48,391 nt of DNA from the IMG/VR virus record IMGVR_UViG_3300037882_002669, positions 1 to 48,391 of that record. One strand, written 5' to 3'. Of this stretch, positions 2,562-48,391 are shown piece after piece; within the stretch, counting starts at the first letter, position 1, and the number at the start of each line of letters is the position of its first letter. Under the pieces are notes generated by a model that was given only the letters and a program-made list of their open reading frames with translations, was not told the origin of the DNA and ran no database searches. The translations under genes were made by a program, and so were the position numbers. The DNA is from a virus.

Positions 2562-2614
2562 CGTGTTTGCTCCTTTAATGCCAAATCTCGCAATTCATCA
2601 TTTGTGTACTTCAT
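2558..2614 (-). CDS. 18-residue coupled micro-ORF
   Basis: A short ORF (starts MKYTNDELRDLA) fills the space between the DUF1643 gene and the nucleotidyltransferase-like gene. Its ATG at 2614 overlaps the upstream stop as ATGA and its own TGA overlaps the next ATG. It may be a real small protein or mainly a bridge that keeps ribosomes coupled between neighbours. I assign no function. Confidence 0.4.
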   Translation of the reverse strand: MKYTNDELRDLALKEQTR

Positions 2615-3099
2615 GTTTCTGGTCTCCACGGTTGCAGTTCTGCGGCATACGGCACCATCAAGGGGTGCAGGGGGGCGCCCGCCTTGGTCGTGCCGAGGCA
2701 GAAGCACTTACCCCAAGTCGCAGAAAAATCTCGAACTTGCTCAGGGCCTAGAACTTTAGGCATTTTAGCCATAGCGCCCCATGCGCAGATCACAAGGTCC
2801 GCCTCCCCTATGATAGAGGCCAGGTGTGATTGGTTTATGGGCCCAACGGGGTCTTCGACTTCTTTCAAGGCGCGCACGTCGGTGGTGCGATAGGCGAATA
2901 GATTGCCTACAATGATCGCCGAAGCCCCAAGGTGTCTGCTGAAGCCAAGCACCTTGCGGATGGTCGCATCATTGATCTTATCATCCGCCGTTGACGGGTT
3001 GACCATGATCCAAGCTATAACTTTCTTGGGGGCGTAGTCGTCTACAACTTGATCGAGGCGATAGCGGTACTGACCGCAGGGCGATAGAACGGCGCTCAT
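2611..3099 (-). CDS. DUF1643 family protein
   Basis: This 162-residue protein fits DUF1643. The hallmarks are VNPSTADDKINDATIRKVLG near residues 32-52, VGNLFAYRTTD after it, DPVGPIN, and ICAWG. The family is common in phages and bacterial genomes; its biochemical role is not established. I chose the ATG at 3099 since it overlaps the stop of the membrane protein gene as ATGA; an extension to 3219 would run across most of that gene. The N-terminus (LSPCGQYRYRL) matches the usual family start. Confidence 0.85.
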   Translation of the reverse strand: MSAVLSPCGQYRYRLDQVVDDYAPKKVIAWIMVNPSTADDKINDATIRKVLGFSRHLGASAIIVGNLFAYRTTDVRALKEVEDPVGPINQSHLASIIGEADLVICAWGAMAKMPKVLGPEQVRDFSATWGKCFCLGTTKAGAPLHPLMVPYAAELQPWRPET

Positions 3100-3359
3100 T
3101 GAGAGGCCCCTTGCAGCCAAGCCGACGCCACTAAGGCAGTTAGGCAGAACGCACCTATCATGCCTATAATGGGGGCGAGCTCGAACAATAGCCCTTTTAT
3201 CTCCCCCGTGGACGGCCATTGCGCGAACGGCCCGATTATCGGATTATATTTAAGAAAATTAAGCACAATTGCAGCAAGGGAGGCTAAAGCCCACACGAGG
3301 CCGATAGCAGCGCACACGAGGCAGACCCAGAGAGCGTCGGTGAATAGTTCAGGTGTCAT
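3096..3359 (-). CDS. Small membrane protein, two predicted helices
   Basis: This 87-residue protein has a long hydrophobic stretch at about residues 9-36 and a second at about 59-82, separated by a short loop with PFAQWPSTGE. That suggests an inner-membrane protein with two passes. The start has a good AAGGA element nine bases upstream. It could be a superinfection or lysis-related protein, but it lies far from the probable lysis region and I recognise no family. Confidence 0.6.
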   Translation of the reverse strand: MTPELFTDALWVCLVCAAIGLVWALASLAAIVLNFLKYNPIIGPFAQWPSTGEIKGLLFELAPIIGMIGAFCLTALVASAWLQGASQ

Positions 3360-4648: not shown

Positions 4649-4686
4649 GTTAGGCCAAAGTTAGGCCAAAGTTAGGCCAAAGTCAA
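4649..4686 (-). promoter_or_regulatory. Promoter-like site covered by three 11-bp tandem repeats
   Basis: Three exact copies of gttaggccaaa lie at 4649-4659, 4660-4670 and 4671-4681. On the minus strand TTGACT (4686-4681) is followed after 17 bases by TAACTT (4663-4658), inside the repeats. An 11-bp period places the copies on the same face of the helix, as for a repressor or activator array. The neighbouring HTH gene at 4700-5113 could encode the binding protein; that is inference. Confidence 0.45.
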
Positions 4687-5316: not shown

Positions 5317-5352
5317 AAAAGTTCTCCGCTTGTAAAATGTATAGTAACACGC

Positions 5353-5381
5353 TTGACACTCGCCTGCAAGTGTTGTCTACA
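5353..5381 (+). promoter_or_regulatory. Candidate rightward promoter with an overlapping inverted repeat
   Basis: TTGACA at 5353-5358 is followed after 17 bases by TCTACA at 5376-5381, a good -35 with a weak -10. The same stretch holds an imperfect dyad, GACACT (5355-5360) against AGTGTTGTC (5369-5377), as in an operator. Transcription from this site would begin near 5388, the chosen ATG, so the first mRNA may be almost leaderless. It lies in the divergent gap 5317-5387. Confidence 0.45.
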
Positions 5382-5387
5382 TCTTTT

Positions 5388-5681
5388 ATGAAGAAAGTTC
5401 CTAGCGTTCTCGAAGTGTCGGCTATTGCACAAGCGTTGTGTGTTCGGTTTAACGTCTCACTTGAGGCTTTGGTGTCCGATGCACGACACGATCCGGTGCC
5501 GTTTGTGCGACATTTAATTACAAGGCACCTACAAGCCCAGGGCTATGGCGCAAGTACGATAGCGCACGCCATGCGCGGTGTAGCGGCGAAAAAAACGTAC
5601 TCCCGAGGGGCCGTTGAGTATGCAATCCGCGCAGTGACACAAGAGCAATATGAGGAGATCAAGCCATGCTTGAAGTTTTGA
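5388..5681 (+). CDS. DnaA domain IV-like DNA-binding protein
   Basis: This 97-residue protein resembles the DNA-binding C-terminal domain of DnaA alone. A helix with VSAIAQALCVRFNVSLEALV corresponds to the start of domain IV; DARHDPVPFVRHLITRHL corresponds to the R...R-hydrophobic helix of the basic loop and HTH; YGASTIAHAMRG and a following basic segment plus AVEYAIRAV correspond to the signature helix. There is no AAA+ domain. I chose the ATG at 5388 rather than 5337 because the promoter-like site lies between them. Such stand-alone domains may bind DnaA boxes as regulators or competitors; an exact box lies at 48242-48250. Function is inferred. Confidence 0.65.
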   Translation: MKKVPSVLEVSAIAQALCVRFNVSLEALVSDARHDPVPFVRHLITRHLQAQGYGASTIAHAMRGVAAKKTYSRGAVEYAIRAVTQEQYEEIKPCLKF

Positions 5682-37677: not shown

Positions 37678-38795
37678 AACCCCGCCTCCAATATTGACTT
37701 CAGGTGTTCGGTCGCAAGTTGCACTACGATGGCGTTGCCGAAGCCGTGCCATGCTTCCTTACGGCGGAAGATATGGCTCTCGCTTCGGTCGGCGACGGCA
37801 TCGCTAAAAGCCACTCCACCGGAAACCCCATTAACCAACATGCGTGTGCCGGGTTTGGCGCGCCGCGCTTTTCCATCGGCACAGACGCCCCACTCGGCAT
37901 CGGACCAGAATGAATCATCTGTCTGCTCAATTGATCGATCTTGCTCCGACCATCCTTGCGAGTTGTGGCCTGCCCTGCCGTGTCCTTCCAGTCGCGTGAG
38001 GTCGGTGTCACCCACGTAGTCATCACCATAGGTGCCGAGACCTGGTGGCCCGCCGCTTCTCGATCCGCCAGCTGGCCTTTGTCCCTCCAGTCGCGAGCAG
38101 ACAGAGTTGGCCACGTGCCTCGCATCTGCGTGGCTAAGCCGTCGCCGCTCTTCTCCGATGCCCCCGCCGCATTGTTGTTTCCAGTCAGTGTCGGTGTCGC
38201 CCAAGTTGCCTGTTGCCCCTTGAGGAGCATCTCGTCTGATCGGTCGCCCCCGCGTGTCCCGTGACCCCCCTTGGCGTCCGCTACTGTCGGCGTCTGCCAC
38301 GGCGAGCCAGTACAGCCGATTTCGGATGTGGGGGGCGTCCACTGCGAGAGCCGGGACATCAACCGCCCTGCTGGCGTAACCTTCTCTCTCCAGATCAGCG
38401 CTAACTCCGTCGAACCAACCGTAGCCAGCCTTTCCCGAAACTTGTTCTCCCACAAGGATAGCGGGCCGTCGGGCACGGGCGAGGCGAAATACGTCGGGCC
38501 ACAGGTGCCTCGGGTCATCGACGCCGCCTCCTGCGCCCGCTGCCGAGAAAGGCTGACAGGGGCATGACGCCGTCCAGAGAGGCTTGCCTGCCGGCCAACC
38601 AGCGCGCGTTGTTGCAAGACCCCAACCAGCAATTCCAGCGAAAAAGTGATGTTGCGTAAAACCGTCAAGGTCATCGGGCTGCACGTCCTTTATTGATCGG
38701 CTGTCAACTTCGCCGTCAGGTATGAGTTTCATTTGAATAAGCCGACGCAACGCAAATGCCATATGCGGGTCGTTTTCGTTATAGTAGGCGTACAT
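37674..38795 (-). CDS. DNA cytosine-5 methyltransferase
   Basis: This 373-residue protein has the motif order of C5 enzymes: FFAGIAGWG at residues 51-59 (motif I), SCPCQPFS with catalytic C80 (motif IV), GEQV at 116-119 (motif VI, usual ENV), IRNRLYWLA at 157-165 (motif VIII) and GNAIVVQLA near the C-terminus (motif X). The variable target region contains repeated D-T/A-D units (ADADSSGR, GDTDTDWK, GDTDLTR). It probably methylates phage DNA against host restriction. The ATG at 38795 overlaps the upstream methyltransferase gene by 17 bases. A second long frame overlaps this gene (37724-38674). Confidence 0.9.
   Translation of the reverse strand: MYAYYNENDPHMAFALRRLIQMKLIPDGEVDSRSIKDVQPDDLDGFTQHHFFAGIAGWGLATTRAGWPAGKPLWTASCPCQPFSAAGAGGGVDDPRHLWPDVFRLARARRPAILVGEQVSGKAGYGWFDGVSADLEREGYASRAVDVPALAVDAPHIRNRLYWLAVADADSSGRQGGSRDTRGRPIRRDAPQGATGNLGDTDTDWKQQCGGGIGEERRRLSHADARHVANSVCSRLEGQRPAGGSRSGGPPGLGTYGDDYVGDTDLTRLEGHGRAGHNSQGWSEQDRSIEQTDDSFWSDAEWGVCADGKARRAKPGTRMLVNGVSGGVAFSDAVADRSESHIFRRKEAWHGFGNAIVVQLATEHLKSILEAGL
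37724..38674 (-). other. Long second reading frame inside the cytosine methyltransferase gene
   Basis: A 316-codon open frame overlaps the methyltransferase gene in another minus-strand phase. It reads like a protein family I know from phage annotations: RERLATVGSTELALIWREKV, TPAGRLMSRLS, the repeated TPTVADAKGGHG, ATPTLTGN, TPTSRDWKDT, and near the end NPAHACWLMGFPVEW. Its segments correspond to the shifted translation of methyltransferase motifs VIII and X. It may be a true overprinted gene or only a frame kept open by the methyltransferase. I see no strong ribosome site before the first ATG (38674), so I do not call it a gene. Confidence 0.45.
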
Positions 38796-39447
38796 CGACT
38801 GCCTCCGCCAAGAAGTGTTGTACGCGCTCAATCGACGACCAGACCCGAAGCACCAATGGGAGTTCACAAACGGCTGGCCTGTGCAACTCACGATCCATGA
38901 TGAAGTCCTGCGCATAGCCCTCTCGCCACACCACCCACATAGTCTCCATGATAGGCGAGTTGCCGCGTTCATGCTCAAGAAACGCCAATCGCCAAAGTAG
39001 GTTCAGCCGCTCTGCGGGCTTTGTCTCATTACGCAGCGCGGATCGACTAACCGCGCTGAAATATGTCACCTTAAGCAAAAGCGCCACGTTGCCTGAGATC
39101 GTCAGGGCATGACGAACAAAGTCTTCGGCTAAGTCAAAAGGCGGGTTGCTTATGACCCAATCTGCTTCTAGGTCTGTTGTCTTCAAAAAGTCTACGTTTG
39201 GCTCGCCATACCCAGTGTCAGGTCGGATGTCGAAAGATTGGACGTTCTTATAGCCCAAAAGCGCAAGCAGGCGTGACATGTGACCCTCACCGCACGCGGG
39301 CTCTAATATCCGCGTCGATAGCGGAAGCTGAAGGTGTTTCATCAGAGCTAGTGTGCCCAGAAAAGGCGTAGGATAGAAGTTGAACGGCTTTTTGTCCCAG
39401 TCTTTTTGAGATGCTACGACCGCCTTGGCTAAAGAGGATCGTGACAC
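38779..39447 (-). CDS. Adenine-type DNA methyltransferase-like protein
   Basis: This 222-residue protein contains an SAM-binding motif ILEPACGEGHMSR at residues 47-59 and the catalytic NPPF at 101-104 followed by DLAEDFVRHAL. That is the pattern of N6-adenine methyltransferases. The PTPFLGTLALMKHL start is typical of small phage enzymes. Its GTG at 39447 overlaps the preceding TAG by one base (TAGTG). With the neighbouring C5 enzyme it suggests a two-mark protection system. No target-recognition domain is evident. Confidence 0.8.
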   Translation of the reverse strand: MSRSSLAKAVVASQKDWDKKPFNFYPTPFLGTLALMKHLQLPLSTRILEPACGEGHMSRLLALLGYKNVQSFDIRPDTGYGEPNVDFLKTTDLEADWVISNPPFDLAEDFVRHALTISGNVALLLKVTYFSAVSRSALRNETKPAERLNLLWRLAFLEHERGNSPIMETMWVVWREGYAQDFIMDRELHRPAVCELPLVLRVWSSIERVQHFLAEAVDVRLL

Positions 39448-40716: not shown

Positions 40717-42804
40717 TTAGTCCTTCCTGTATATGCGACCGATGTACCCAGCCGCGCCGAGGGGCAGACCCGGCGCCCACCGCACCGCTTCCGCCATGAG
40801 ATCAATAAGGTTCTGAAGCCGGTCCTCACCCAACTTGGTTAGCGCGACAAGCTCGTCGTGAACGTGCATGACCAAATTGAAGCCCGCTCGATGCGCGCGC
40901 ACCATGCCCGTAGCAAGGATGTCCCGCGCAATAGCTTGAACCATATTCTCAATAAACACGCCCCCGTGCGCACTCAGCCTAGCCCATCGAGGGCCTTCTT
41001 GCGGTTTACCCATATAGCTTATGCCCTCGGCCTCAAATGTGTAGCCTTCAGGGTCTTTTTTGCTCGGGGGCATCGTCACAGTTTTTACTTCAATCTGCGG
41101 ACTCTTATAGTGGATTGCCCGACCAGACGGCAGCACCAAGCGTAAAAACCCTTGTTCTCGCACAAAATGCACGGGCATTGTGTGTTTTGACCCATCGGTG
41201 CGATTTATAATCGGGGAGTACGACGCACCTTTGTCGCGCATGGCGCTCTTGGCCGCAAACTCAATCGCCTTCCACGCTATGGGTATCTCGGGGTACGTCG
41301 CTCGAAACGTATCAACGGCCTTCTTCGCTTCTTCTTGCGTAAACTGGACGCCCATGTTCTCGGCATACCCCCACATTCCTGTCTTCTTGCCCTCCCAGTT
41401 CAGCCCGCCCCCGCCCAAGCGAAAGCCCCCGCCAAGGACGCCTGGCTTTGCGTTGTTTCTTTGCTTCTTAGTCACCTGGTCGTACTCGACATTGAACAAT
41501 ATCTGCCCAAAGTCCTTGTATGGGTCTCGGCGATCCGAAAAGACTTTCAATAGGCGTCGGCACCCGCACAACCACCCTATCACCGCAGTCTCGATCGAGG
41601 ACAGATCAGCCACCGTGAACTCGTAGCCTTCTGGCGCTTGAATGACAGATCGACCCATGTCAGCTAAGGGATTCATGGGCTCGTCTGCGAACATGCGCAG
41701 CCAGTCAAGGTCGCCAGACTCAATCGCGTTTGTGACACCCTGCAGCACCGCAGGGTGCTCATACGCCTTGGGTGTGCGCTTCATGTTTTGCGGGTTCAGT
41801 CTACGCCCGCCCCAACGGCCCGTTCGTGAGGCCCCTGCGATCTGCAGAGTGTATCGCATTCGTCCGCCCCGCTGCGTATCAATCACCTTTTTGTTTTTTG
41901 ACGGCGCTGTTCTATTGGCCAACCGACGAAGTCGCAAGGTCTCTGCCAATTCGCCATCGAGGTGCGCACGGTATTGATTATCGGCGTCCAGCACCTTATC
42001 CACTGTGTCCGCCTGAAGGTCGTTGAACGGATACTTTCTCTCCCGCGCCCACGGCAAAAACTGCGCCCCACTTAGACTGTTGATCAAGCCCGTTCGCGCG
42101 TTTATCTCCTCTTTGAGCTCGTCCTGTCGCGCTTTGAACAACCCATAGCATTGATCGGCAAAGTTGACTGAGATCGGTATGCCCCGATCATTTATGATCT
42201 GGTCAATCTCATACAACTCCCACTCCCGCTTTGGGAAAGGCACCTTCTCGCACTCCGCCAGAATGGCCCTCTCGGCCACAACGTCCTGCGCACAATACTG
42301 GCGAAACTCTTCCCACTCGGCAGGATGCGTCCGCCAATCGTAACGAGGTCTCGGGTCTGCTATAGTCGGCTTGCGGGGCTGAGAGAACATTCGAATGAGG
42401 GCCTTACCCCTAGACGACTTCACGGCGGCGTCAGGTAGTCCCATTTGCGAGCCAACTTCATCGAGTGTGCCTACATAAGAAAGGCTGTACGCACGAAACA
42501 TCGTGCATCGCCAATTGGCCGCTGGATTTAGGGGATCAAAACGTGTGCGTAGAACTCTTTGACTGACGACGCGCTCAAACTGAGCGTTCCAAGCGAGTTT
42601 TTCAACGTGCGGGTCTTCAAGCGCCTCCCGCAGTTCTGCCGGAAAGCCGCCTTGGTCTGCGGACCATATCTGCCCCGCCCCGCCGTCAAAAGAATACGCT
42701 GCCATCAGCACTTCAGTTCTCGGGCTGGCGGTATAGTGGTCCAGCCCGAGATTGAAGAGGTCTACGTCACTGAACGTCTCGTAGTCGAGGTTCAGTGTCG
42801 TCAT
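40717..42804 (-). CDS. Family A (Pol I/T7-like) DNA polymerase
   Basis: This 695-residue protein has an N-terminal 3'-5' exonuclease start, LNLDYETFSDVDLFNLG at residues 4-20, with the DYETF motif, and a C-terminal polymerase domain. Motif A is VADLSSIETAVIGWL, motif B region ends KQRNNAKPGVLGGGFRLG, and motif C is LVMHVHDELVA. The motif A DLSSIE differs from the usual DYSQIE but occurs in this phage subgroup. It copies the phage genome together with the SSB-like and helicase proteins. The gene is followed after four bases by the dATP/dGTP-type gene and preceded by the DUF2815 gene. Confidence 0.93.
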   Translation of the reverse strand: MTTLNLDYETFSDVDLFNLGLDHYTASPRTEVLMAAYSFDGGAGQIWSADQGGFPAELREALEDPHVEKLAWNAQFERVVSQRVLRTRFDPLNPAANWRCTMFRAYSLSYVGTLDEVGSQMGLPDAAVKSSRGKALIRMFSQPRKPTIADPRPRYDWRTHPAEWEEFRQYCAQDVVAERAILAECEKVPFPKREWELYEIDQIINDRGIPISVNFADQCYGLFKARQDELKEEINARTGLINSLSGAQFLPWARERKYPFNDLQADTVDKVLDADNQYRAHLDGELAETLRLRRLANRTAPSKNKKVIDTQRGGRMRYTLQIAGASRTGRWGGRRLNPQNMKRTPKAYEHPAVLQGVTNAIESGDLDWLRMFADEPMNPLADMGRSVIQAPEGYEFTVADLSSIETAVIGWLCGCRRLLKVFSDRRDPYKDFGQILFNVEYDQVTKKQRNNAKPGVLGGGFRLGGGGLNWEGKKTGMWGYAENMGVQFTQEEAKKAVDTFRATYPEIPIAWKAIEFAAKSAMRDKGASYSPIINRTDGSKHTMPVHFVREQGFLRLVLPSGRAIHYKSPQIEVKTVTMPPSKKDPEGYTFEAEGISYMGKPQEGPRWARLSAHGGVFIENMVQAIARDILATGMVRAHRAGFNLVMHVHDELVALTKLGEDRLQNLIDLMAEAVRWAPGLPLGAAGYIGRIYRKD

Positions 42805-42806
42805 GG

Positions 42807-43463
42807 CTAGAAGTCGTCGTCAATAGCATCGTTGTCCGATGCCTTGGACGCGGAGCCAGTTTTCTCCTCGTCGCCATCATCCCAGATGTCATCAAAGTCG
42901 CCGTCTTTCGCCCGACGGCGGCCCAGCGGCTCGTCATCGCCACGAAAGCGAACAGAAGATACGCCTGAACAGAGCCTATCACCGTAGGCGGTGGTGACGT
43001 AGAAGCGCAAAATCACGTCGCCTCGGCAGCCAGCGTAGATAATGCCGTTCGGATCGCGGCCAATGTTGAGCCCGTCTTTGTCATACAGCAAAGGCGCGTC
43101 CTCGGGATTCTCTTTGCACGAGACGCCCCAGTGGTTGGGAAAGTCCGCCTCAACTTCATCCCGTGCGGCTTTTGTATCAAGGTCCACGAGAGCTTTCGCA
43201 TCTGCGGGCAGCTTCTTGATCTTCGCATCGGCCATAAGAGACTTGATATGCTCTTTCATCAGCTCAACCGCCTCCATGTGCTTCGCACTCGCCTTATTGA
43301 GAAGCGGGAAGAGTTGATATTTGAAGTTACCGTCGCCCTTATAGTCTCGCGGCTTGCGTAAGAACACACGAGACAGTCGCACGTCGTTCAAGAGAATTGT
43401 ACCGTCATCGTACAGCTTTGCGCTGCCGCTAGGTGTCGATTTTACTAGTTGTCGTTTCGCCAT
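42807..43463 (-). CDS. DUF2815 protein, probable single-stranded-DNA-binding protein
   Basis: This 218-residue protein matches DUF2815, regarded as T7 gp2.5-like ssDNA-binding proteins, including the beta-barrel section (NGIIYAGCRGDVILRFYVTT) and RLCSGVSSVRFRGDD. The C-terminus is strongly acidic and ends DAIDDDF, like SSB tails that recruit replication partners. I chose the ATG at 43463 with GGAG nine bases upstream; a second ATG at 43469 and a GTG at 43484 are in frame. It sits between the polymerase and DUF2800 genes, the common order in phages of this type. Confidence 0.85.
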   Translation of the reverse strand: MAKRQLVKSTPSGSAKLYDDGTILLNDVRLSRVFLRKPRDYKGDGNFKYQLFPLLNKASAKHMEAVELMKEHIKSLMADAKIKKLPADAKALVDLDTKAARDEVEADFPNHWGVSCKENPEDAPLLYDKDGLNIGRDPNGIIYAGCRGDVILRFYVTTAYGDRLCSGVSSVRFRGDDEPLGRRRAKDGDFDDIWDDGDEEKTGSASKASDNDAIDDDF

Positions 43464-43480
43464 TTTCATTTTCTCCGTTT

Positions 43481-44677
43481 TCACTCAAAATCGAATACGT
43501 CACTGAAATCCTCGACCTCAGCACCTACCCGTTTAACCACTCTGCGCGCAGGCGACCTTGTGGTCAACCTGTTCACAAGAGCCTCTGCGACCGCTTTTGG
43601 CAGACCCAGTTTCTTTACCGCCGTCTCTAGGTTGGGCGGCGTTAACAGGGTGCGCTGGCTATACACTTCAGGCGCAAACCCGTACCAATCTCGTAGCTCG
43701 TCTTCGGCAATAGCAATATAGGCCCTGTTGCCTTGGCGCCCAAGTGCGATCTCCCAGCCCTCTGGGGGGTCTTCGCCTTCTTGCACAAGGCGCCTGGTCA
43801 ATTCATCAAAGGCGTCCTTCAAGAACGTCTCGATTGTCTTTCGATAGGCCAGCACCAGCCCTAGCTGCTCTGTCGTCAAGCGCTGCGGGTCAAACTGGTC
43901 GTCGCTGGCCTCCATCATAAACTCGCCCACTTGCTTAGCTCGTGCCTTGCATGACCCTCTAATAGGACACCACTCGCACGTATCCGGGTCCGGTGTCCGC
44001 ACCGCATCACGCATACACGCGTTTTTTACCGCCTCACGCGCTTTCTCCACGAACGCCAGCAACTCCGCCCTGTCAAACCAATACTCTTTGAACGAGTGAC
44101 TGCGCGGCTGAATAATGGAGACGCAGAACCGGTCTAGGTGCCACAGGTCTAGCCCATCAACCACACCCGCCATGTAGAGCATTTCTTGCTCGTTGCGCTC
44201 AGGGCTCACGTCCAAGTAGCCAAACTTAAAATCTGACACCACCACGTATTCGGGGTATATCGCAACAATGTCGGCAGTGCCCTTCTGGTGAGGCACCCCG
44301 AGAGTTCGTTCTAGGTCTACGCGATACTCATAACGAACCTCAAGGGCGTCGTCATACGATCTGGCTTTCTCTAGCGCCCACTCAATCAAGGCCCACAGCT
44401 CGTCTGTGACTTCAATCTCAAAGCCGTCAACCGTGTGTGTGCTTCCGACCGAATATGCGTCTGCGCTCTGGTCCGTGAGTATCAACTCGCAGATCGTATG
44501 GCACAACGTCCCTTGTGCTGCAGCGATGCCTGCATTGTCGGGCACGTCCATTGTCGCAATCACCGAACCAGCGCAATACACCCACCGGTGCGCACTAGAC
44601 GGCGCAAACAACGAGTGGCCATGCTGGAGCCGATGCTCCAGCATGGCCTCGTGGCTGATGACTACATCAGAAATCAT
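43481..44677 (-). CDS. DUF2800 (Cas4/RecB-like) nuclease
   Basis: This 398-residue protein begins near SLFAPSSAHRWVYCAGSV and AAQGTLCHTICELIL, the N-terminal motifs of Cas4/RecB-like PD-(D/E)xK nucleases. The catalytic region has KGTADIVAIYPEYVVVSDFK; CEWCPIRGSC toward the C-terminus could carry an iron-sulphur cluster. Such proteins accompany DUF2815 in phages and probably act in recombination or replication. I chose the ATG at 44677, overlapping the upstream stop. The end (EDFSDVFDFE) is acidic like the neighbouring proteins' tails. Confidence 0.85.
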   Translation of the reverse strand: MISDVVISHEAMLEHRLQHGHSLFAPSSAHRWVYCAGSVIATMDVPDNAGIAAAQGTLCHTICELILTDQSADAYSVGSTHTVDGFEIEVTDELWALIEWALEKARSYDDALEVRYEYRVDLERTLGVPHQKGTADIVAIYPEYVVVSDFKFGYLDVSPERNEQEMLYMAGVVDGLDLWHLDRFCVSIIQPRSHSFKEYWFDRAELLAFVEKAREAVKNACMRDAVRTPDPDTCEWCPIRGSCKARAKQVGEFMMEASDDQFDPQRLTTEQLGLVLAYRKTIETFLKDAFDELTRRLVQEGEDPPEGWEIALGRQGNRAYIAIAEDELRDWYGFAPEVYSQRTLLTPPNLETAVKKLGLPKAVAEALVNRLTTRSPARRVVKRVGAEVEDFSDVFDFE

Positions 44678-45095
44678 CGTCTTCCTCTGCGGCAGGAGCC
44701 GCTGCAAAGCCCTCAATTGCTGCAGTCATGGCATCGCCCAGCGCGTCGTGCTTGTCGATAGCCAGGATTGCGTCAGCCAGCTTGGCTTCAGGAACACCCA
44801 TAATCGGTGCCATGAGCTCCTGAAACGCTTTCTTGGTTGCACCAGGCGTCTTGTCTGGATACTCGGTGCGGAACCGATCAGACAGCACTTGGATCGCTTC
44901 GGGCGTATACCGTGCCGCCTTTGGCTTCTCGGTCTTTGGGTCCGCTTTCTTTGTGGTGGACGCGCCAGCGGGTTTGGCTGCACCGCCCTTCAGTAAAGCG
45001 ACGTGCTCGGCCACAAGTTTGCTGTTTTCTTTGACGCTATCGGCCAAAGTGTTGTTGCTCTCAATGACTTTCGCCAAGAGTTCTTCAATGCCCAT
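44667..45095 (-). CDS. Acidic-tailed protein, first gene of the replication operon
   Basis: This 142-residue protein has an N-terminal coiled-coil-like helix (EELLAKVIESNNTLADSVKE), a Lys/Ala-rich linker, and a helical second half (PEAIQVLSDRFRTEYPD), ending in EEDDDF. I do not recognise the family. The tail resembles that of SSB and the adjacent DUF2815 protein, so it may bind the same partners. It has a good AGGAGA element eight bases before the ATG. It is the first leftward gene beyond the divergent control region. Confidence 0.6.
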   Translation of the reverse strand: MGIEELLAKVIESNNTLADSVKENSKLVAEHVALLKGGAAKPAGASTTKKADPKTEKPKAARYTPEAIQVLSDRFRTEYPDKTPGATKKAFQELMAPIMGVPEAKLADAILAIDKHDALGDAMTAAIEGFAAAPAAEEDDDF

Positions 45096-45209
45096 CTGTG
45101 TGTCTCCTATGCAGTGGTGGTGCTGTACTGCCTCGCTATCGGTAACTTGTCAAGTGCACTTATGTGTGTCAACAAGTTGAAACGCACACTGCATTTTTGG
45201 AGAAGTCAC
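45096..45209. promoter_or_regulatory. Divergent control region with nested dyads
   Basis: Between the leftward replication operon and the rightward HTH gene lie several symmetric elements: AACTTGT (45144-45150) with ACAAGTT (45172-45178), the perfect palindrome AAGTGCACTT (45152-45161) and CTTGTCAAG (45146-45154). On the minus strand TTGACA occurs at 45153-45148 and 45172-45167, both overlapping the dyads; clear -10 boxes are lacking. The arrangement fits a repressor-controlled divergent promoter, perhaps bound by the HTH protein of 45210-45452. Confidence 0.5.
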
Positions 45210-45452
45210 ATGAAAATACCCCCATGGGCGCGCAACAGCCTGACCGAAAGAACACGATTCCTGATACGATACGCCGCTTTGTTCTACGAGCCCGAAGGTC
45301 GCTTGACCGAGCTGAGTAGCGCTTGTGGTCTCAGTCCCGGTGGCTTGTCTAGCGCCTTAAGTCGCGGACGGCTATCTCGCGCTACTGCCCAGCGCATAGC
45401 CGCTTGCATTGGCCCGGAGAACTTCCCCCTTCACCTGCTAACAGCACGGTAG
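45210..45452 (+). CDS. Small HTH regulator (Cro-like)
   Basis: This 80-residue protein has an HTH-like segment GRLTELSSACGLSPGGLSSA followed by LSRGRLSRATAQRIAACIG, the plan of phage Cro/YdaS-type DNA-binding proteins. It starts at 45210 behind GGAG. It is probably the regulator of the adjacent divergent control region and lies in front of the primase-helicase gene, so it could control replication gene dosage. Family call by pattern only. Confidence 0.6.
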   Translation: MKIPPWARNSLTERTRFLIRYAALFYEPEGRLTELSSACGLSPGGLSSALSRGRLSRATAQRIAACIGPENFPLHLLTAR

Positions 45453-45459
45453 GACACCT

Positions 45460-47868
45460 ATGTCAGCGTTTTTGGCGACACTCGGTCCTCTTCTGATTAG
45501 AGGGGGCTATGACATCCTGCCTATAAGGCCCGGAACAAAAGCCCCTGTAGACACAGGCTGGTCAAAAGCCCCGTTAGCTGACGAATCAAAACTGCGAGAC
45601 TGGCTCTCATTGGGGCATGCTTCTTGGGGCATCGGCATCAGAACTGCAAGAACTCCCGCCTTCGACATTGACGTAGACGACCCGAAATTGGCTGCCGCAC
45701 TGCGCAAAGTTGTGGCCGATATGTATCCGACCAGCCCTTGTCGCATCGGACGCGAGCCCCGAAGCCTGTTTGTGTTTCAGGGTGGTCCGTTCAAGAAGCG
45801 CATTTTAGAGTTTGATGGCGGCCATAAGGTCGAACTTTTGGGCGAGGGCCAGCAGTTCGTCGCCTACGGCATCCACAAAGACACTAAGAAGCCGTACCTT
45901 TTTACTGACGACTGCCTGATGTCAATCAAGCGGGATGACCTCCCAGTGGTTGACGTAGATCGACTGTTTGCCGCCGTCCAGGCGGAGGCCGAACGGCTTG
46001 GTTTTAGCGTCGTCAAGTCGGTCAAGCGATCTGCCGTGGCGTCTGATGATGATGATTCGTGGGCCGAGCAGGTAAACGGCAAGATTCGCATTAGCGACCG
46101 AGAACTCCTTAAGTCGCTGCTCTTGGTGCCCGAATTTGACAACTACGAGCGTCGCACTCAAGTCGGCATGGCCCTTTGGCACCAATATGATGGCGAACAG
46201 CCGGGCCTAGCCATGTTTCACGAGTGGGCCTCTCAGTCCACAAAGTATAACGAAAACGACACGGACGAAATATGGCATCACTATGATTGGGCTGGTCGGT
46301 CAGACCCTATCACTGCACGATCTATTCTGTCTTGGGCTCGCGAAGCTGCCGACATTAGCGCCGCTGAGGCTCTGAAGATTGCTCGCGAGACCATGAAGGC
46401 TGCCACGAAGCTGTCCGTCGTCGAGGAGGTAGCGGCTGATATCAAGAGGTTGGACCTGCCTGCTCTCGTCCGAGAAGCCATAGCGGGCGACGTTCAAAAA
46501 GCCTTTAAGCGCATCACCGATAGTAGCCTCTCAATTGGCCGCGCTCGTGATCTCATAAAGGCCGAGTTGGGCCCCGCGACAGACACGCCCGACTGGCTCA
46601 TTGGTTGGGTGTATCGGACCAATGACGACACATTCTACAGCACAAAGACCTTCACCAGCTTGTCGCGAATAGGCTTTGACTCTTTGATGACCAGAGAAGT
46701 TTTGACCTGGACACAAGTGCAAGAGGGCCAGGTTAAGCCCGACGAAAGTCCTACCGACCTCGCTCTAAACCGCTACCGCATCCCTATTGTTGAGCGCTCC
46801 ATCTACATGCCAGGCGAGGGGTCTCTTTTCACGTTTGACGGATCACCCGTCGCCAACGAGTATGACGACCGGTTTGTCCCAAAGCGTGTGCCCCGCAATT
46901 CGTGGTCAAGCGCGGAGGAAGAAGCTGTGTCCCTTGCTGAGCGGCATTGCGCAGCGCTGTTTCCCGATGATCGGGATAGGGGTGTTTTGCTTTCTGCTTT
47001 CAGCCACATTGTGAAGTACCCGGGCAAGCGGCTTCGGTACGCCATCTTGCTTCAAGGGGCCGAAGGCGACGGAAAGACTTGGTTCATGCACCTGTTAGGC
47101 GCAGTGCTGGGGTCCAAGAACGTGACCCCTTTAAGCGCGGAGGCCCTTCAGGAGAAGTACAACGGATGGGCGGCCGGCTCACAGATTTGTTTCTTTGAGG
47201 AGATACGATTACTGGGCCACTCCAAGTTTGATGTCCTCAATCGCATCAAGCCCGTGATCACCAATGATGTGGTCTCGATCCGCCGCATGAACACGGACGC
47301 ATATCCGGCCCCAAACACATCTACGAAGGTTTTGACAACGAACTTCCGTGACGCGCTACCCCTAGATGGCGGGGACTCCCGCTTTCTTATTTTGATGTCT
47401 CAATTTCAGACCAAGTGCGACCTTGGAGAGTTTCTATCCGATAAGCCCGACCACTTTGACAAGTTGTACGGCGCTCTCCGTCACGGAGGGGCTTTGCGTG
47501 AGTGGCTCATAGAGCAGCCAGTTCACCCCGAGTTTCGTCAGGATGGCCGAGCACCCGAGAGCGTCGGTCGTCGCGAAATGCTGGAGGAGAGCATGTCTGA
47601 AATTGATAGCGCGGTGGCGGACATCATTGAAGATGGCGAAGTCGGTACATCCCGCGCTGCCTGCAGCGTCAGGCTTCTTCTACGGAAGCTGTCCGAGCAG
47701 GGGCTGCCTGCAACAGACATGCAGGCGTGCCATGCACTGCGTCGCGTTGGGCTGGGATCGACATGTCGATTGCGCATACAAGAAGAGCGCCACCGCGTGT
47801 GGTCCTCTAGCCCGGCGAGTTTTATGCAAATGTCCCGGAGCGAACAGAGCCGCTTGCTCGGTTTCTGA
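45460..47868 (+). CDS. Bifunctional PrimPol primase and SF3 helicase
   Basis: In this 802-residue protein, residues 1-170 carry a PrimPol domain: TRTPAFDIDVDDP-type sequence (AFDIDVDDP) has the paired catalytic aspartates, and the GQQFVAYGIHKDTKKPY segment carries the motif with H. The middle (about 215-300) resembles PriCT helical domains. The C-terminal part from about 515 is an SF3 helicase: Walker A GAEGDGKTW at about 532, Walker B ICFFEEIR, and the sensor NFRDALPLDGGD. It primes and unwinds at the phage origin. It is read toward the iteron region, which begins 20 bases after its stop. Confidence 0.92.
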   Translation: MSAFLATLGPLLIRGGYDILPIRPGTKAPVDTGWSKAPLADESKLRDWLSLGHASWGIGIRTARTPAFDIDVDDPKLAAALRKVVADMYPTSPCRIGREPRSLFVFQGGPFKKRILEFDGGHKVELLGEGQQFVAYGIHKDTKKPYLFTDDCLMSIKRDDLPVVDVDRLFAAVQAEAERLGFSVVKSVKRSAVASDDDDSWAEQVNGKIRISDRELLKSLLLVPEFDNYERRTQVGMALWHQYDGEQPGLAMFHEWASQSTKYNENDTDEIWHHYDWAGRSDPITARSILSWAREAADISAAEALKIARETMKAATKLSVVEEVAADIKRLDLPALVREAIAGDVQKAFKRITDSSLSIGRARDLIKAELGPATDTPDWLIGWVYRTNDDTFYSTKTFTSLSRIGFDSLMTREVLTWTQVQEGQVKPDESPTDLALNRYRIPIVERSIYMPGEGSLFTFDGSPVANEYDDRFVPKRVPRNSWSSAEEEAVSLAERHCAALFPDDRDRGVLLSAFSHIVKYPGKRLRYAILLQGAEGDGKTWFMHLLGAVLGSKNVTPLSAEALQEKYNGWAAGSQICFFEEIRLLGHSKFDVLNRIKPVITNDVVSIRRMNTDAYPAPNTSTKVLTTNFRDALPLDGGDSRFLILMSQFQTKCDLGEFLSDKPDHFDKLYGALRHGGALREWLIEQPVHPEFRQDGRAPESVGRREMLEESMSEIDSAVADIIEDGEVGTSRAACSVRLLLRKLSEQGLPATDMQACHALRRVGLGSTCRLRIQEERHRVWSSSPASFMQMSRSEQSRLLGF

Positions 47869-47887
47869 GCCAAAAACAACACCCGAA

Positions 47888-48316
47888 GTTAGTGGGACAG
47901 AGCCCGAAGTTAGTGGGACAGAGCCCCTTTTTGCCCAAAGTTAGTGGGACAGATGTGCGATTGTTCCCACGTTTTTTGTCCCACTAACTTTTTTCTGAGT
48001 TAGTGGGACAGTTAGTGGGACAAAAAATCCTGTTGTTTAACAAGGGGTTGCTTCTACTTAATTTACTGAATTTTAGTGGGACAAGTTAGTGGGACACACT
48101 TAATCTTTTGTTTTTCTTACTCTTTATCTCTTTCTGTCCCACTAACTTACATACTTTAACTAATAGGAGTGAGAAAAATAATCGAAAAAAGCCCAAATAT
48201 GTAATGTCACATAGTGTGTGTGTTATATTACCCTCGTTGCCTGTGGATAAGTCACGATTTAAGAAAAAATATCCCTATAGAGTAGAGATGGGCGTTTTAG
48301 TGGGACAAGTGGGACA
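47888..48316. repeat. Iteron array, candidate replication origin
   Basis: The 12-bp unit GTTAGTGGGACA occurs at 47888, 47909, 47940, 47999, 48011 and 48085 (start positions), with a first-base variant at 48072 and 48296, and reversed at 47977 and 48135; partial copies lie near 47962 and 48308. Early copies are spaced 21 and 31 bp, near whole helical turns. Runs of A and T lie between copies, and 48147-48290 is AT-rich with the DnaA-box match. I find no gene in 47869-48391. Together this is the plan of an iteron-type origin next to the primase-helicase gene. Which protein binds is unknown. Confidence 0.7.
48242..48250 (-). promoter_or_regulatory. Exact DnaA-box sequence
   Basis: TGTGGATAA on the plus strand is the reverse complement of the consensus DnaA box TTATCCACA. 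It lies in the AT-rich part of the iteron region. A 9-bp match can occur by chance in a 48-kb window, but its position supports an origin role. Confidence 0.55.
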
Positions 48317-48391
48317 GATCGGATCAGTTTTCGCCCCTTGGTGCCATACGAAAAACCACAATGATAAAACTTACGGGGCTCAGCGCCTCCC

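Follow-up and report, generated by a model that had tools for sequence, protein, structure and literature searches.

Gene content and layout of the locus

The window (the whole stretch of DNA analysed here) is a 48,391-bp virus record from IMG/VR that is classed as linear. Its genes for capsid, portal, terminase, tail and helicase proteins have counterparts in Burkholderia phage AH2 (Casjensviridae), in the same order and with identities of 39% for MCP, 37% for the portal and 45% for TerL; judged by these matches, the phage is Casjensviridae-like. The right arm has the layout of the family: genes for SSB, an exonuclease and a small protein, then a divergent Cro-like gene together with the PrimPol gene, then noncoding DNA and finally cos (Table 1).

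The contig stops 2 bases past a cos-like 12-mer. Since its last 14 bases (GCTCAGCGCCTCCC) match the start of the AH2 record (GCTCAGCGCCCTCCC), which is the experimentally determined cos of AH2, the right edge of the window is probably the true genome end or close to it. At the left edge the 24-mer GCCTTTCACTCAAAACGAGCATAA is present in 4.1 copies and is followed by two copies of a 25-mer (positions 1-168 in all); it was probably here that the assembly broke, and part of the left arm may be missing. Elsewhere the window carries GTTAGGCCAAA in tandem (3.2 copies, 4649-4683), a DUF1643 protein (2611-3219, E 2e-32) and a DNA methyltransferase-like protein (phrog_799, 38779-39447).

Table 1. Coordinates of the features discussed, in window positions.
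Feature	Position	Strand	Remarks
DNA polymerase A (PolA), replication module	40717..42804	-	
Gp2.5/Enc34-type ssDNA-binding protein (SSB)	42807..43484	-	
Exonuclease (DUF2800)	43481..44716	-	
Small gene, phrog_7401	45003..45452	+	AH2 gene at the same position is annotated Cro
PrimPol (AEP)-PriCT-2-SF3 helicase protein	45460..47868	+	802 aa, proposed initiator
C-terminal domain (CTD), predicted winged helix	47527..47865	+	Residues 690-802, proposed iteron-binding domain
Iteron array	47888..48316	both	11 copies, core AGTGGGACA, consensus TTAGTGGGACA
Perfect 18-bp inverted repeat, 20-nt loop	47972..48027		Two opposed iterons
AT-rich stretch, 27% GC	48100..48159		Candidate DNA unwinding element; AT-rich on to ~48275
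DnaA box, exact TTATCCACA	48242..48250	-	Sole exact match in 48 kb
Cos-like 12-mer GCTCAGCGCCTC	48378..48389		AH2 left end starts GCTCAGCGCCCT; AH2 cos is 12 bases

The PrimPol-SF3 protein and its C-terminal domain

Pfam recognizes PrimPol, PriCT-2 and SF3-type domains in the 802-aa protein, together with DUF5906/VapE-like matches. An AlphaFold2 model of the protein (pLDDT 89.6) matches poxvirus D5/E5, and its PrimPol domain matches the pRN1 primase (Z 13.7). For the part comprising helicase and CTD, the closest solved structure is the CTR of the NrS-1 phage polymerase (PDB 6k9c, 6k9e; Z 25.9, HMM E 1e-22), and the primase-helicase of SaPI5 (PDB 7om0, 7ola) is matched with Z 18. A Pfam search of the CTD itself returned no match; modelled alone (pLDDT 91.6), the domain matches mainly winged-helix DNA-binding domains, at middling Z scores of 6-7, with a predicted recognition helix at about residues 753-762.

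The iteron array in the window

The array lies in noncoding, AT-rich DNA between the PrimPol-SF3 stop and the cos-like right end, where the 523 bp 3' of the stop hold no convincing gene. It consists of eight exact copies of GTTAGTGGGACA (47888+, 47909+, 47940+, 47977-, 47999+, 48011+, 48085+ and 48135-), two copies with one mismatch (TTTAGTGGGACA, 48072+ and 48296+) and an eleventh, partial copy (AGTGGGACA) on the plus strand at 48308-48316, so that nine copies are on the plus strand and two (47977 and 48135) on the minus strand. Allowing up to two mismatches, GTTAGTGGGACA has 15 matches in the window against 2.6 expected, a number that none of the shuffles gave, and 10 of the 15 are clustered within 420 bp. 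A de novo search of the 523-bp region (both strands, up to one mismatch) likewise recovered an 11-mer with 11 copies, the shuffles reaching at most 3 (n = 100). The first-pass annotation had described about ten copies in both orientations directly downstream of the PrimPol-SF3 gene, in AT-rich DNA, and all of this is borne out: the stop codon of the gene is at 47868 and the first copy at 47888, and the GC minimum over 60 bp is 27% in the array region and 38% in the PrimPol gene. The helical-turn spacing that it also proposed holds for the intervals of 21, 31, 12 and 13 bp and fails for those of 59, 61 and 211 bp.

A DNA similarity search of the 532-bp region against phages and plasmids gave no significant match. 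Three matches came from a paired-motif scan of IMG/VR: two (L012 and L013) look like repeats within the coding sequence of a repetitive gene, whereas the third (L011) is an isolated pair that we put down to chance.

Iteron arrays in PrimPol relatives

Because only two loci, both weak, turned up when close relatives of PrimPol were sought directly, relatives were collected by an alignment-based search, which yielded 80 from IMG/VR, to which 13 annotated phages were added. In the 900 bp 3' of the PrimPol stop, searched de novo at 72 loci, at least 5 copies of one 11-mer were present at 31; 26 were kept once five doubtful cases (L031, L045, L047, L057 and L102, with repeats one-directional or not clearly noncoding) had been removed. 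On later inspection L057 resembled a genuine array, as did L048, where the repeats lie 1.1-1.5 kb downstream. Two-way arrays thus follow the PrimPol gene in at least 26 of the 72 relatives, with a motif of 9-12 bp that is distinct in each lineage; about half of the relatives had no clear array at the sensitivity of the de novo search.

As a control, the 900 bp at the 3' end of the PrimPol gene were searched and contained no more than 4 copies at any locus. At roughly ten loci a second control, the upstream stretch, did reach 5-15 copies; at least some of these (L048, L057, L059) are long repeats in a single orientation, so copy number alone is no proof of an array, and the two orientations and the noncoding position matter as criteria. 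Across 30 hand-chosen arrays the motif occurred 10.8 times per kb downstream of PrimPol, against 0.36 times per kb in front of the Cro-like gene and not at all within PrimPol itself, the contrast with the PrimPol coding sequence being partly built in by the definition of the motifs within the arrays. All 26 arrays tested contained a 60-bp stretch richer in AT than any in their own PrimPol gene.

The motif is AAGGTCCGAAT in AH2 and BcepNazgul, TTTCCGGGACA in SS2019XI, TTGTGACAGTA in AhaSv and Suzuki and AGGTTACAAA in iEPS5. AH2, BcepNazgul, chi and AhaSv resemble the window in gene order, in the cos end and in the position of the array 3' of PrimPol, and differ from it in the sequence of the iterons. 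One relative whose PrimPol is only ~31% identical (L059) shows the motif of the window itself, in five near-copies, next to its PrimPol stop. The mixture of phage genes and an iteron origin, which had been regarded as unusual, is therefore not so: because such arrays recur 3' of PrimPol across the relatives, many Casjensviridae among them, the layout of the window is typical of the family.

In some relatives the array straddles cos, with copies beyond it in AH2 (2), L028 (2) and L029 (6). In KL1 and Pseudomonas phage 73 the PrimPol gene is located mid-genome, and the two were chosen to ask whether arrays track PrimPol or cos; both have 3-6 weak repeats ~1 kb downstream, and according to the KL1 paper cos was not detected in that phage.

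Two further repeats were seen on the other side of the PrimPol gene. L073 carries a bidirectional array of ATTATCCGATT at ~2.65-2.94 kb before the PrimPol stop, upstream of PrimPol instead of after it, and in L059 a 15-bp unit that includes CAGGTCGGCAC is present in fifteen tandem copies ~3.05-3.28 kb before the stop.

A candidate reader of the iterons

When whole domains were compared with the motif by Mantel tests, the association was weak (rho 0.10-0.20), and PrimPol was not separable from the small terminase subunit, TerS. The comparison was then made across 31 hand-picked arrays with a sliding window of 16 residues, after correction for whole-protein similarity. The top three of the 190 PrimPol segments fall in residues 749-772, where the recognition helix and the start of the wing are predicted, with partial rho of 0.28-0.32; none of 300 label permutations, which ignore phylogeny, reached this peak, and P was 0.02 without close pairs. 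Because TerS segments also covary with the motif (P 0.007; 0.07 without close pairs), covariation by itself leaves TerS in play.

The choice is addressed more directly by a natural pair. Erwinia phage pEp_SNUABM_08 (L065) and pTO42E (L138) carry TTATGGGACA, and L067 and L068 carry TTCTGGTACA; the two motifs occupy corresponding places in an alignable region, and the same two positions differ in the clearly alignable copies. Between the two sides of this pair PrimPol is 89% identical, and residues 701-802 account for 45 of its 96 differences. In TerS (96% identical) the HTH has not changed, and in the Cro-like protein (89% identical) it hardly has; the ~60 bp adjoining cos, which are free of iterons, are nearly identical. 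As read from these sequences, the pair would favour the PrimPol CTD over TerS as the reader, and strongly, but not exclusively, because many other proteins also differ between the genomes (the median identity over the 76 proteins compared is 91%). A second pair, AhaSv (L022) and L048, differs in one base of the motif throughout the array (TACTGTCACAA in L022 and L023, TACTGTCCCAA in L048); the recognition segment is 96% identical, and R is replaced by K in the strand that follows the helix. This pair neither confirms nor refutes the assignment.

The main rival, because of the position of the array, is a cosB-like packaging site, in which the repeats would be TerS binding sites beside cos, comparable to the R sites of lambda gpNu1. 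In most relatives the array does lie within ~500 bp of the cos-like end, which is the terminase-proximal end, and some TerS segments covary with the motif as described above. The natural pair, however, switched its iterons with the HTH of TerS unchanged and with the DNA next to cos almost intact; in addition, the copies reach ~500 bp from cos, keep no fixed distances to it and lie on both sides of it in AH2, L028 and L029. Taken together, we consider a packaging site unlikely.

The array could also be a set of operators for a phage regulator, either the Cro-like one encoded upstream of PrimPol or a different one, since a small HTH-type gene lies within the same operon and the two orientations of the repeats would fit a repressor. 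Against this, the motif occurs upstream of the Cro-like gene in only 4 of 30 loci, with one copy each, and no iteron is found at the promoter of the small phrog_7401 gene in the window. The Cro-like HTH hardly changed where the iterons were switched, and the sole sigma-70-like promoter in 44900-48391 (fewer than in shuffles) lies outside the array. An operator function is accordingly quite improbable.

A conventional iteron/DnaA origin of the plasmid type, at which host DnaA would act as co-initiator, is no better placed. The exact DnaA-box match reported at first pass is present, in AT-rich DNA, and is the only one in the 48 kb, but among the 43 array regions exact boxes occur in just two, the window and one other; because the relatives do not share it, we give the box little weight, and it is probably incidental. 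The PrimPol protein, moreover, has an SF3 helicase of its own, so that loading by DnaA/DnaB would be unneeded, and no Rep_3/RepA-type initiator lies beside the iterons, where the adjacent genes are those of the PrimPol-SF3 and small phrog_7401 proteins. A 114-aa ORF far from the array (5337-5681), with a weak DnaA-C-like HTH (E 0.006, under the Pfam cut-off), is possibly the DnaA-like protein mentioned in the earlier annotation. The cumulative GC skew, with a minimum at ~45.5 kb in the window and ~55 kb in AH2 (~2.4-3 kb from the array, at the switch of gene direction), is uninformative for the origin because it is confounded by gene direction.

Least probable of all is an origin in the style of pRN1, in which a large stem-loop rather than the repeats would be recognized: pRN1 has the same gene layout, with a small regulator, then PrimPol-SF3-winged helix and a noncoding origin 3' of it (PMC4234260), and the region is predicted to fold slightly better than its shuffled versions (z -2.8), but its main stem consists of two opposed iterons, and the repeated motif found family-wide would be left unexplained.

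A proposed replication origin

We propose that 47869-48377 is the replication origin of the phage and that its iterons are read by the CTD of the adjacent PrimPol-SF3 protein, a reading to which we assign a probability of roughly 77%. It draws on the array, its recurrence throughout the family, its AT-richness, the domains and predicted fold of the protein, the covariation and the concerted switch of motif, all of which were computed here. The winged helix of the CTD would bind the TTAGTGGGACA iterons, and opposed iterons would allow two helicase rings to assemble; these rings would melt the AT-rich DNA between or beside the iterons, the PrimPol domain would then prime, and the PolA and SSB of the phage would extend the primers, and replication would proceed in both directions.

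This is the best explanation because the layout matches that of SaPI Rep, P4 alpha and pRN1, self-loading helicase-initiators whose origins adjoin the initiator gene or lie directly 3' of it. In SaPI5 Rep a primase and a helicase are fused, and the SaPI Rep helicases, apparently as two hexamers, bind iterons directly 3' of their own gene through the CTD (PMC7581432). Like the window protein, SaPI5 Rep joins primase, helicase and a C-terminal dsDNA-binding domain in one protein, with the iteron origin directly 3' of its gene; it differs in belonging to a satellite of Gram-positive hosts and in being only 13% identical. The P4 alpha protein, the primase-helicase of the P4 ori/crr system, binds origin repeats through a C-terminal winged helix (PMC4234260), but its primase belongs to the TOPRIM (DnaG) type, whereas that of the window is an AEP PrimPol, and P4 is a satellite. 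The archaeal plasmid pRN1 (orf56/orf904) has the same succession of regulator gene, PrimPol-SF3-winged helix gene and 3' noncoding origin (PMC4234260); it differs in that its origin is a 100-nt stem-loop without iterons and that a different helical domain stands at the position of PriCT-2. For the NrS-1 polymerase no iteron array has been described, and its 8-nt recognition sequence is present in two copies in the middle of the genome (PMC7102993). With its SF3/AAA+ core, predicted C-terminal winged helix and adjacent iterons and AT-rich DNA, the window locus would fit the SaPI Rep/P4 alpha kind. Of the earlier proposal, an iteron origin beside its initiator gene is thus retained as the best reading, with strong comparative support, while the DnaA box as a shared part, the supposed oddity of the combination and the plasmid-style Rep/DnaA mechanism are given up, the closest systems being the self-loading initiators.

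An origin of this kind is already known; the instance and its spread through the Casjensviridae were not found described in the open-access literature. Nor did we find there a published replication origin for this family, although priority is not established by this; neither the chi paper nor, by term search, the AH2 paper mentions an origin or repeats 3' of PrimPol.

The family includes chi, the classic flagellotropic phage. The reading set out above proposes an origin for all of the Casjensviridae and names both a candidate reading protein and a candidate helix. Because iterons and reading domain have changed together in natural pairs, the origin question becomes accessible to a simple swap experiment, and natural initiator-iteron pairs might find use as orthogonal replication modules. 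Going further, because the array spans cos in AH2, L028 and L029, the origin might be complete only after the ends have joined, which would couple the start of replication to circularization, and the initiator-iteron pairs of the family might number in the dozens, mutually orthogonal and evolving by concerted replacement; this extension we regard as doubtful.

Two of the database records that carry arrays have labels that call for comment. The replication end of 'Clavibacter phage 33' (L024, OR548257.1) is nearly identical in layout to that of Stenotrophomonas phage Suzuki and has the same array, and the Gram-positive host label of this record looks doubtful. The Enterobacter 'plasmid' pTO42E (NZ_CP139333.1), a 64-kb circular record, has a Casjensviridae-type replication region with an array and a PrimPol 92% identical to that of Erwinia phage pEp_SNUABM_08; it is either a phage-plasmid or a mislabelled phage.
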